From Collinsella sp. BA40 (GTDB taxonomy: Bacteria; Actinomycetota; Coriobacteriia; Coriobacteriales; Coriobacteriaceae), in contig NZ_VOWY01000007.1 of NCBI RefSeq assembly GCF_008014645.1, positions 1 through 64,000 on the forward strand: DNA of 64,000 nt. Reading direction: 5' to 3'. The position numbers and the translations under genes are program-made. Positions 830 to 5,111 of the stretch are shown here, piece after piece; position 1 is the first letter of the stretch; each line of letters starts with the position of its first letter. The notes below the pieces were generated by a model that did no database searches, was not told where the DNA came from, and was given only the letters and a program-made list of their open reading frames with translations.

Positions 830-2824
830 ATGAAGGTCGCGCTTTCTCAAATTCATCTTCCGATTGGGGATCTTGAGGCCTTTCAGATGCGCGCTCGTTC
901 TCAGCTCCATATGGCCGAGTCTCGCGGTGCCGATCTGATCGCATTTCCCGCACCACTTATATGTGGGTCCCAGCCTGGCACCTTTGCTGGGAGTTCGGCG
1001 TACCAGACGCGCCTTGTTGACGCGCTACACTCTTTGTCCTCCGATGTTCAGGCGTCGGGGGTTCATGCTGCCCTTGTTCCCGCTCCCGTTGCTTATGGGG
1101 AGGGGGTCTTATTCGAAACGTTTTATCTTCGAAACGGACGTGTGATTCCACTCCGGCTTCTGGCCTCTCAATCCCGCATGAAGATGGATGAGTCAGCGGA
1201 TCCCTGGGCGCCCATCTGCTTCGATCTTGATGGCCTCCGAATCGCGCTTTCATTCGATCTCAATCGCGACATTGAATTGCTGCCCCCGGGCACCGACGCA
1301 TGCCTCTACTTTCAGCTATCTCCTTTCTCTGTGGATGAGCTCAGCGCTACCTTGGGTGCGGGTTCATGTATCTCCCAATATCGTAATCTTGCCGAACAGC
1401 ATCGCATTTGGATTGCATGTATGGCTCCGGTAGGTCTCTATGATAGCGACCTGTATGTCGGCGGCTCATTTGTACTTGATGATTCGGCGAATATCATTGC
1501 TTCTGCCGCACTTTTCGAGCAGGATCTTTTGGTCTGCGATTTCGGTAAAATCTCCGGCGAGAAGCCTTCTACTTCAAATGCTCTGGAGAGCATTTCGTCT
1601 TCCGAGCTTTTGTGGGGTGCGTTGCGCCGCAGTGTTACGGATTTCGTTGAGTCTTTCGATGCTCGAACGGTTCTCGTTGAACTTGATGGATCGGTATCGA
1701 GTGCTTTGGTGGCGGCGCTTGCCGCCGATGCGCTGGGTTCTAGGCGTGTCGTTGCCCTTGCCTTTCCGACCTACGGTCAAGCTACGGCCAAGGCGATGCA
1801 AGAGGAGGCTACAGCCTTTACCAATGCTCGTGCTGAAGCGGATACGCTCCACATTCGCTATGTGGAGCACTCTGTTCCCGATTCGCTGCAAGGGCTTTAC
1901 CGCGAATTTGAACTTACGGATTGCGATCTTGGATCATTGTATAGGTACCTAGTGCTCGAATCATATGCGTCGCGCCTGAATGCCGTGGTGCTGTCCTCAT
2001 ATACGAAAACTGATTACGCGTTGGGCGGAGCTCGTGAATTTGAGTTGCATTTCGCATTCGCTCCGTTTGGCGATTTGTATTTATCTGAGCTCGCACCTCT
2101 GGTCGAGTATCGAAATCGTGTTTCTGAGGTCGTGCCGGTCGAAGCTGTTTCGATGGACGCCATTAATCGGACTGCTGTCAGCGCGGTCGATCGTGCTCTA
2201 ACTTCATTGCGGCGAATTCACTCGGTGCATGGCGACCTGCTTTCGGTTTTGGAGGATTCTGCCCACAATCTTGATGCCGACACCCTTGACACATTTCTGA
2301 AGGAACATATTGCCCAGGGGAAGCCGGGCGCTCTGACGGGCGTCGGCCAGATGTTCCCCGAGCTTATGCGGGCTCTGTGCTTCTTGGTGCAAAGCGGAGC
2401 TTCCTTGTGTCGTCGAATGCCCGCGTTTCCATGCGTTTCTTCGTCGCCCCTTGCGGCGCGAACATGGCCTCTGTCCATGAATTGGCTTGAGCCGGCTGAG
2501 GGGGTGCGGCCCGATGCCGTCAAGGGGCTTGTTGATTATGAGATGGAGCGTGAGGAGCGCCGGCTTGAGGACGCGGGCCAGCGGGCGCGTCAGGAAATCG
2601 CGGGGCTCATCGGCCAGTTTTTAGGACTGCACCAGATGAAGCCCGACGACGGGCAGGACTCTTCTCTAGAATCCGACGAAGCCACGAAGGGGGAATCTGT
2701 CGATCTTGGCAACGAGTCCTCTCCAAGATATCTGGAAGATGATGCCCCTGGTATTGATCTTTCGAGTGAAGAGGCAGTTCCTCCGGGATTTCGTATGGGC
2801 GGTCCGTTCTTTTCCGTGAACTAA
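830..2824 (+). CDS. NAD synthetase-like two-domain protein, probably catalytically inactive
   Basis: This 664-residue protein has the architecture of glutamine-dependent NAD synthetase: a nitrilase-like domain (about 1-240), a synthetase-like domain (about 260-520) and a charged C-terminal tail. In the nitrilase part the glutamate of the usual F-P-E motif is alanine (F39-P40-A41), and the segment that should carry the nucleophilic cysteine reads IALSFDLNRD, without cysteine. In the synthetase part the pyrophosphate loop SGGVDSS has become DGSVSSA (from D286), and the downstream G-T-x-N-K-S-E motif reads S-S-Y-T-K-T-D. The fold seems kept while both active sites are lost, so a binding or regulatory role is more likely than NAD synthesis. 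It lies about 70 bases upstream of ruvC. Homology is clear; inactivity is my inference from motifs. Confidence 0.8.
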   Translation: MKVALSQIHLPIGDLEAFQMRARSQLHMAESRGADLIAFPAPLICGSQPGTFAGSSAYQTRLVDALHSLSSDVQASGVHAALVPAPVAYGEGVLFETFYLRNGRVIPLRLLASQSRMKMDESADPWAPICFDLDGLRIALSFDLNRDIELLPPGTDACLYFQLSPFSVDELSATLGAGSCISQYRNLAEQHRIWIACMAPVGLYDSDLYVGGSFVLDDSANIIASAALFEQDLLVCDFGKISGEKPSTSNALESISSSELLWGALRRSVTDFVESFDARTVLVELDGSVSSALVAALAADALGSRRVVALAFPTYGQATAKAMQEEATAFTNARAEADTLHIRYVEHSVPDSLQGLYREFELTDCDLGSLYRYLVLESYASRLNAVVLSSYTKTDYALGGAREFELHFAFAPFGDLYLSELAPLVEYRNRVSEVVPVEAVSMDAINRTAVSAVDRALTSLRRIHSVHGDLLSVLEDSAHNLDADTLDTFLKEHIAQGKPGALTGVGQMFPELMRALCFLVQSGASLCRRMPAFPCVSSSPLAARTWPLSMNWLEPAEGVRPDAVKGLVDYEMEREERRLEDAGQRARQEIAGLIGQFLGLHQMKPDDGQDSSLESDEATKGESVDLGNESSPRYLEDDAPGIDLSSEEAVPPGFRMGGPFFSVN

Positions 2825-2894
2825 ACATTCGCATGACCAACTTGCCGGCTCATGATATAGTAGAACAGATGTTCGAGTATGAGCGGAGGTGGAT

Positions 2895-3392
2895 ATGATC
2901 GTCTTGGGTATCGATCCAGGTTTGGCCAATACCGGATGGGGCGTCATAGAAGAACGCAAGGGCCAAGTTCGTTGCCGAGCCTATGGCTGTATTCAAACGT
3001 CCGCTGGAAACGATCTTGCCGCTCGCTTGTGCCGTATCGCGGACGAGTTGCATCGTGTGGTTGATCGCTATCGCCCTACTGAAGCAGCTGTCGAGGGTAT
3101 TTACTTTGGAGCGAACGTGCGCTCTGCGATTCCTACGGCTCACGCCAGGGGGGCTGCCCTCGTTGCCTGCGCTTTGTGCGGCGTTGAGATCGGTGAATAT
3201 ACCCCTATGCAGATCAAGCAGGCAGTCGTGGGAACAGGGTCCGCAGACAAAGATCAAGTCATCTTTATGGTGAGGCGCTTGCTGCAGCTCGATCACGATC
3301 CACGGCCGGACCACGCTGCAGATGCTCTTGCATGCGCTATCTGCCATGCGCACTTGAGGCGTACTGCCGCATTGAGCAACGGCGCATATTGA
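2895..3392 (+). CDS. ruvC: Crossover junction endodeoxyribonuclease RuvC
   Basis: RuvC resolves Holliday junctions as a dimer that cuts both strands symmetrically, working with RuvAB. The 165-residue protein has the expected acidic site: D7 in GIDPG, E67 in AAVEG, and H140 and D143 in the C-terminal DHAADALA segment; histidine at the third position is known in other RuvC proteins. The ATG at 2895 is preferred over a GTG six bases upstream because CGGAGG sits five bases before it, overlapping the GTG. It is the first gene of a ruvC-ruvA-ruvB operon, 25 bases from ruvA. Confidence 0.95.
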   Translation: MIVLGIDPGLANTGWGVIEERKGQVRCRAYGCIQTSAGNDLAARLCRIADELHRVVDRYRPTEAAVEGIYFGANVRSAIPTAHARGAALVACALCGVEIGEYTPMQIKQAVVGTGSADKDQVIFMVRRLLQLDHDPRPDHAADALACAICHAHLRRTAALSNGAY

Positions 3393-3417: not shown

Positions 3418-4038
3418 ATGATTTCGATGTTGAGGGGCGTTTTGGTCGAGGCGACGCCAAGTTCGGCGCTTGTCGATGTCGGCGGCGTTGGATTCGAGGT
3501 CGGCATCTCGCATACCACGGCAGCGCAGCTGCCAACGCTTGGGCATGAATGCGTTTTACATACGAGGCTCCAGGTGCGGGAGGACTCGATGACGCTCTTT
3601 GGATTCGCGCATACCGAAGAGCGATTGATGTTTGACAGGCTTATTGCGGTTAGCGGGGTCGGACCGAGGCTCGCGCTTTCGATCCTGTCGAAATTTAGTC
3701 CCAGTCAGGTGTACACCATGGTTATGGCTGAGGATGACAAGGGGATGTCGTCGGTATCCGGTGTTGGAAAAAAGACCGCGCAACGCCTGATCCTTGAGCT
3801 CAAGAGCGTGTTTGAAAAAGATGCCTCACTGTGGTCGGTTCCCGATGTCGAGCCGCATGCCGCAGCGAGCGCGGCTCCCAAGCTTTCAACGAATATGGAT
3901 GATGCCAGAATGGCGCTATTGTCAATGGGCTTTAGCTCACAAGAGGCAGAGTTGGCGTTGGAGGGGCTTGATGACACCGGACAGCGGGTCGAGGTGTTGC
4001 TGGGCTCTGCTCTGAAGCGACTAGGAATGGACGCATGA
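3418..4038 (+). CDS. ruvA: Holliday junction branch migration complex subunit RuvA
   Basis: RuvA binds the four-way DNA junction as a tetramer and loads the RuvB motors. The 206-residue length and order fit the family: an N-terminal OB-fold ([12 protein letters not shown] onward), central helix-hairpin-helix elements around [13 protein letters not shown] and [13 protein letters not shown], and a UBA-like C-terminal domain ending in [10 protein letters not shown] that contacts RuvB. An AAGGAG site precedes the start by about a dozen bases. The stop overlaps the ruvB start (ATGA), indicating translational coupling. Confidence 0.96.
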
Positions 4039-5111
4039 TGTGGGAAGCAGATGCGGGTAGGGATCTTTGGGATGATGCTTCGGGCCTGCCTACAGGTCCT
4101 TCACCGGAAGCTGGAAGGTTTGTAACGGGTGATTTGACAGCGGCCGATCTTGATGTGGAGCGAACGCTTCGACCACAGAGGTTGGAAGATTACTGCGGCC
4201 AGGAACATATAAAACAGAGTCTAAAAATCCTTATTCAGGCAGCGCAAAACAGGGGTGAGAGCCTTGACCATGTGATCTTTTCGGGCCCGCCGGGTTTGGG
4301 AAAGACGACGCTGGCCACTGTGGTTGCGAATGAGTTGGGCGCGCAGATCAAGACGACATCTGGTCCGGCGATAGAGCGCACTGGAGACCTCGCCGCTATA
4401 CTTACGAATCTTCAACCGGGAGACGTGCTATTTATCGACGAGATTCACAGGTTGAATCGTTCCGTGGAGGAGATTCTGTATCCTGCGATGGAGGACTTTG
4501 CCCTTGATATCGTCATCGGCAAAGGTCCGGCTGCTCGTTCGATTCGCCTTGATGTGCCGAGGTTTACCTTGGTTGGCGCCACCACGCGGTCGGGAATGCT
4601 CACAGGTCCATTGCGCGACCGTTTTGGCATTTCCTTCAGGCTTGATTACTACTCGATCGAAGAGCTTGCGACCATCGTTGAGCGTTCGGCTTCTATATTG
4701 GGCGTATCGATCGACCACGATTCCGCTCTTGAGGTTGCCTCGCGCTCTCGAGGTACGCCTCGCCTTGCGAATCGCTTGCTCAAGCGAGTGCGAGACTACG
4801 CTCAAGTTCGAGGGTCTGGTCCTATTGAAATCAGCATCGCGCGAGAGGCGCTTTCGTTTTTCGAAATCGATGAGCTTGGCTTGGATTGGATGGACATCAG
4901 GATCTTGGAAACGCTGTGCAAGACGTTTCGCGGTAGGGCGGTTGGATTGAGTACGTTGGCAAGCGCTGTGGGCGAAGACCCTTCAACACTTGAGGATGTA
5001 TACGAGCCATATTTGTTGCAGCGCGGATTGATCGTGCGAACGCCTCAGGGGCGCGTTGCCACGCTTACCGCATTCGAGCACCTTCGTCTAGAGCCTCCCG
5101 CCCACGCGTAA
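4035..5111 (+). CDS. ruvB: Holliday junction branch migration ATPase RuvB
   Basis: RuvB is the AAA+ motor that drives branch migration with RuvA. The 358-residue protein shows Walker [10 protein letters not shown], Walker [10 protein letters not shown], the sensor region [18 protein letters not shown], and a C-terminal winged-helix domain near the end ([18 protein letters not shown]). The N-terminus is about 25 residues longer than in E. coli, which is common in Gram-positives. The start overlaps the end of ruvA by four bases. Confidence 0.97.

Follow-up and report, generated by a model that had tools for sequence, protein, structure and literature searches.

What is a protein with the two-domain architecture of an NAD synthetase (NadE), but apparently without either of its active sites, doing in a bacterial genome that also carries an intact enzyme? 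The question is raised by a gene near the start of a 64,000-nucleotide stretch of Collinsella sp. BA40 DNA, the whole of which is referred to here as the window. The gene and its product, both called pNadE, are made up as follows:

830 to 2824, + strand: pNadE, putative NadE-derived pseudoenzyme, 664 amino acids (open reading frame; Pfam and NCBIfam; fold)
830 to 1549, + strand: N-terminal nitrilase-like (glutaminase) domain, residues ~1–240, active site lost (canonical NadE alignment; Foldseek amidase matches)
1598 to 2494, + strand: synthetase-like domain, residues ~257–555, active site lost (Pfam NAD_synthase at 264–435; model)
2495 to 2806, + strand: C-terminal extension, residues 556–659, a helix (563–597) followed by a poorly conserved linker (model; conservation)
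2807 to 2821, + strand: conserved tail, the C-terminal peptide FFSVN-COOH (conservation across loci; synonymous codon variation)

In the list of the window's open reading frames, pNadE runs uninterrupted through 664 codons from ATG to TAA. It shares ancestry with the NadE enzyme, as seen from homology and from the tree described below. The Pfam NAD_synthase model matches residues 264–435 with 45 bits (cut-off 21), CN_hydrolase stays below its cut-off of 23 with 16 bits, and PRK13981, the model for full-length NadE, covers residues 1–438 with 117 bits, well short of its cut-off of 479. Against the PRK02628 model the score is only 16.5 bits. An AlphaFold2 model of the single chain, built from 47 sequences, has a mean pLDDT of 85.5, with residues 628–664 below 50, and its top PDB matches are the NAD synthetases 3n05, 5kha and 4f4h (E ~1e-25). 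Since the model is confident and its best matches are NadE structures, the two-domain NadE architecture appears to be retained; the predicted model and the PDB matches place pNadE in this fold, and the original prediction of such an architecture over 664 residues agrees with the frame, the Pfam matches and the fold. No match was found in the viral contigs searched.

The catalytic columns were defined on 23 canonical PRK13981 proteins and followed through 64 aligned relatives from the order Coriobacteriales, 32 of them from the window's family (f1), 13 from its sister family (f5) and 19 from other families. The altered sites in pNadE are:

950 to 952, + strand: codon 41, Ala at the position of the catalytic Glu (canonical NadE alignment)
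1160 to 1162, + strand: codon 111, the catalytic Lys column (canonical 107), replaced by Leu (alignment; a gapped region, the column being less certain than the others)
1256 to 1258, + strand: codon 143, Asp at the position of the catalytic Cys (alignment; Asp in 32/32 of the window's family)
1685 to 1705, + strand: degenerate ATP-pyrophosphatase loop DGSVSSA, residues 286–292, canonically SGGIDSA (alignment)
1994 to 2014, + strand: degenerate SSYTKTD, residues 389–395, canonically TTGNKSE (alignment; K393–T394 invariant in the dead clade, that is, in f1 and f5)

None of the three residues of the nitrilase Glu-Lys-Cys triad is kept in pNadE. The codon 41 column holds Glu in at least 95% of the 23 canonical proteins and in 0/64 of the Coriobacteriales relatives, and none of the 64 keeps the Cys or, with the columns placed as in this alignment, the Lys. 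In the synthetase domain, SGGIDS has become DGSVSS (286–291) and NKSE has become TKTD (392–395). Both SGGxDS and NKSE are lost in all aligned sequences from f1 (32/32) and f5 (13/13), a concordance that excludes chance, and both are intact in all relatives that belong to neither family (19/19). Every substitution that had been named at the outset is real and falls in a catalytic column, and the substitutions are conserved among orthologues, in 45/45 aligned members of the two families. Judging from its sequence, pNadE is most probably an inactive pseudoenzyme derived from NadE, as had been proposed. The possibility that other parts of the protein provide the missing catalytic residues was also considered, and neither the alignment nor a scan for derived residues revealed a conserved candidate.

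The erosion extends beyond the catalytic residues themselves. Columns invariant in canonical NadE and lost in the dead clade include G280, S282, G284, D286, N363, Q365, R369, D403 and K416, and the nitrilase E/K/C/W columns have gone in the same way. K393, the Lys of NKSE, is the sole motif residue that is still invariant, while in the loop most members retain G287 and S291. The residues that have become newly invariant are P84, F214, T394 and the C-terminal F-S-x-N, and they do not form a pocket. These patterns bear on the suggestion in the original prediction that the protein senses NAD, ATP or glutamine. A sensor of this kind would bind a nucleotide, NAD, NaAD or glutamine, reporting its level to a partner, and the confidently predicted fold, K393 and the largely kept G287 and S291 speak for it. 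However, most of the invariant columns around both canonical sites have been lost along with the catalytic ones, and the pocket shows no new conserved cluster beyond K393–T394. With conservation gone from the residues that contact the ligands, ligand sensing is considered unlikely.

The order in which the two sites disappeared can be approached through a tree rooted on canonical NadE. All Coriobacteriales sequences form one clade (support 100), with canonical members of the PRK13981 subtype as the nearest outgroup. The dead clade of f1 and f5 (support 100) is nested inside it and adjoins L164, a synthetase-intact sequence from family f3. The tree supports an order of losses in which the glutaminase site would have gone first and the synthetase site later. 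Another f3 genome, G046, also has a relative whose synthetase site is eroded (LAGDLDSS and ACDKTARAL); it is split across two contigs (L220 and L223) and ends in PLFSKN, and the same genome holds a separate single-domain NadE (L213, GISGGKDSS). In the tree this relative joins the dead clade at 94/99, a grouping with L164 is not rejected (p 0.163), and the case may represent a second, independent displacement. In family f2, three single-domain NadE sequences (L195, L196 and L209) are placed inside the dead-glutaminase clade, as if the dead glutaminase domain had been dropped altogether.

The place of pNadE in the genome is nearly fixed. Its neighbours in the window are:

329 to 712, + strand: desulfoferrodoxin-like protein, 127 amino acids, conserved upstream neighbour (Pfam PF01880, 66 bits; synteny)
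743 to 767, + strand: terminator-like hairpin between the desulfoferrodoxin gene and pNadE (pattern scan)
2889 to 3392, + strand: ruvC, conserved downstream neighbour (Pfam RuvC, 175 bits; synteny)
3418 to 4038, + strand: ruvA (open frame, named from sequence and position; synteny)
4035 to 5111, + strand: ruvB (open frame, named from sequence and position; synteny)

The hairpin pattern at 743–767 suggests that pNadE begins its own transcription unit. Among the loci of named Coriobacteriaceae and Olsenella, desulfoferrodoxin lies upstream in 61/61 and ruvC downstream in 60/61, the remaining locus stopping at a contig edge. Twelve further f5 loci have ruvCAB in 11 cases and desulfoferrodoxin in nine. 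The L164 locus has the desulfoferrodoxin neighbour, with no ruvCAB within the stretch of sequence covered. pNadE is present in one copy in 45/45 Collinsella genomes and in 76/81 genomes of the sister family. One f5 genome, G105 (a single contig, 99% complete), has no pNadE match at E 1e-30, and in G094 and G217, of the same genus, the matches are partial only.

Selection on the gene was estimated as dN/dS (ratio of means, Nei-Gojobori) in eight close genomes, more distant pairs being synonymously too diverged. The value is 0.056 for pNadE against 0.096 for the intact NadE in the same eight genomes, and 0.017–0.024 for ruvC, ruvA and ruvB in seven genomes. This is purifying selection, as the open, well-formed frame had been taken to imply. 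A broken pseudogene is ruled out, there being no internal stop in any of the 45/45 Collinsella genomes. Over long distances, pNadE outpaces the intact NadE, ruvC, ruvA and ruvB in change: identity to the window's protein is 30–36% within Collinsella, and dN between far pairs is 0.55, compared with 0.23 for the intact NadE. The low dN/dS among close genomes combined with fast long-range change indicates a protein that is constrained now and has drifted far, although the rapid long-term divergence also fits slow relaxation.

Against this background of change, the C-terminal tail stands out. An F-[SA]-x-N end is found in 64/65 loci of the window's family, the remaining one being truncated by the end of its contig, and in those 64 the sequence closes with F-F-S-x-N, from which few depart. 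FSxN also ends 13/13 of the f5 sequences. Two f3 genomes, that of L164 included, end in FSKN, and seven f6 sequences end in [FIY]-L-x-N; L164 and the three f6 sequences that were checked keep SGGxDS and NKSE. Mean conservation is 0.21–0.33 in the linker and 0.87 in the final four residues. The codons of the tail vary synonymously, which places the tail under selection at the protein level. A cause at the nucleotide level is ruled out by the varying codons and by a distance to ruvC that ranges from 53 to 307 bases. Since the synthetase-intact L164 has both the FSKN end and the desulfoferrodoxin neighbour, the tail probably predates the loss of catalysis. In the window's genome, the tail coding pattern was found at no site other than pNadE; across the genus it recurs at pNadE, and other matches are mostly scattered. 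A few recurrent sites besides pNadE are seen in C. aerofaciens-like genomes. One of these, G014:C1:1738166-1738183 (TTTTTTACGATAAACTAG), would read FFTIN-stop, and the same sequence is present in ~20 C. aerofaciens-like genomes.

These observations also weigh on the idea that pNadE is a slowly decaying relic, made redundant by a second NadE and kept by chance or for the sake of ruvCAB expression. Its divergence across the genus, faster than that of its neighbours, and its apparent absence from a few sister-family genomes are what such a relic would show. However, the low dN/dS, the lack of internal stops in all 45 genus genomes, the invariance of the tail despite synonymous codon changes and the retention of the gene in two families since their common ancestor run counter to decay, and this explanation is regarded as quite unlikely.

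A second, intact nadE, for which the original prediction had proposed a check, is indeed present in the window's genome. It lies on G000:C27, encodes a 725-residue protein of the PRK02628 subtype (809 bits, from joined pieces) and has all its motifs (PELCLTGY, VCEDLW, SGGLDST and GTGDLSE). Every f1 and f5 genome sampled has a PRK02628 NadE, which is rare elsewhere in the order. Outside these two families, the dead-glutaminase gene is the top NAD-synthetase match and nearly always the sole one above 200 bits; G041, G047 and G191 have a second NadE-like frame besides it. Two genomes carry a PRK02628 NadE with no old nadE detected: an f2 genome that is 99% complete (G107:C7:31645-33552) and an f6 genome that is 82% complete (G173:C183:3279-5183). 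The lack of any trace of the old gene in these two indicates that outright loss is possible, and they can serve as examples of the old enzyme being fully replaced.

pNadE could also be pictured as a subunit that regulates or chaperones the intact PRK02628 enzyme within mixed oligomers. The co-occurrence of the two proteins throughout both families speaks for this, as does the oligomeric nature of glutamine-dependent NadE enzymes. However, the two differ in subtype and locus, and G107 and G173, with the PRK02628 enzyme and no detected old protein, show that the subtype does not generally need pNadE; such a role is held to be distinctly improbable. A new enzyme with pockets rebuilt for a different reaction is very improbable, for although a few derived invariant residues exist (P84, F214 and T394), no conserved polar or nucleophilic set to replace the lost residues is seen in either domain.

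The explanation preferred here, which is given about an even chance of being right, is that the original nadE of this lineage was demoted stepwise and kept as a non-catalytic scaffold that shows its C-terminal peptide to a partner. The glutaminase site had already gone when the sampled families of the order diverged, and what was left was an enzyme presumably dependent on free ammonia. The synthetase site followed in the common ancestor of f1 and f5, in genomes with an intact NadE of the PRK02628 subtype; both of these losses can be read from the aligned sequences. The dead protein was then retained under the observed purifying selection and in its fixed place upstream of ruvCAB, probably because the original enzyme already had a second, non-catalytic task. 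The folded body would serve as the scaffold, and the flexible linker would display F-S-x-N-COOH to a partner protein; gene position makes the Ruv proteins one candidate. It is the retention, place and tail of pNadE that point to a non-catalytic function, and conservation that suggests the scaffold. We infer an adaptor of this kind, in preference to a ligand sensor, mainly because the tail is under selection at the protein level and probably predates the loss of catalysis. Counting against the scaffold are the fast long-range divergence of pNadE, its apparent absence from some sister-family genomes, G105 among them, and the failure to find the tail's coding pattern anywhere else in the window's genome. 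It is further possible, though doubtful, that this lineage's NadE carried an additional non-catalytic duty in its F-S-x-N peptide and that the arrival of the other NadE split catalysis from this duty, which is perhaps tied through ruvCAB to recombination repair. If so, pNadE would be what remains of an essential metabolic enzyme once its moonlighting half has been isolated.

Whatever its role, an essential enzyme family appears here to have given rise to a pseudoenzyme that is retained across two families of common gut bacteria. Living relatives represent each stage, with both sites intact, the glutaminase dead, both sites dead or the old gene lost, and a direct test of the enzyme's non-catalytic roles is therefore possible. 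In metabolic reconstructions, pNadE genes should not be counted as NAD synthetases. A literature search, outside of which lay most subscription journals and all supplements, found no description of a NadE pseudoenzyme in Coriobacteria or Collinsella, and Collinsella, Eggerthella and Atopobium are absent from the main text of a survey of NAD synthetase types (PMC3376133). pNadE would be a pseudoenzyme, and the search turned up no other from its parent family.

Among known systems, the closest to pNadE are the short two-domain NadE enzymes of the PRK13981 subtype (5kha, 4f4h and 3n05), with which it shares domain order, fold and homology over residues 1–438. It differs from them in lacking the catalytic residues in both domains and in having about 100 extra C-terminal residues that end in F-S-x-N. 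The long-form PRK02628 enzymes, such as M. tuberculosis NadE (3dla), have the same two domains, but theirs is the subtype of the intact enzyme in the window's genome and not that of pNadE. Single-domain, ammonia-using NAD synthetases make up type N (PMC3376133). The synthetase-intact relatives in the other families are expected to use ammonia in the same way, but they still carry a dead glutaminase domain, and pNadE itself appears from its motifs to have no working synthetase site at all. The PII-regulated NadE-Gln, reported as an active enzyme under PII control (PMC7196632), is likewise a case of NadE being regulated or used beyond simple catalysis; in contrast to that enzyme, pNadE has itself apparently lost its active sites.
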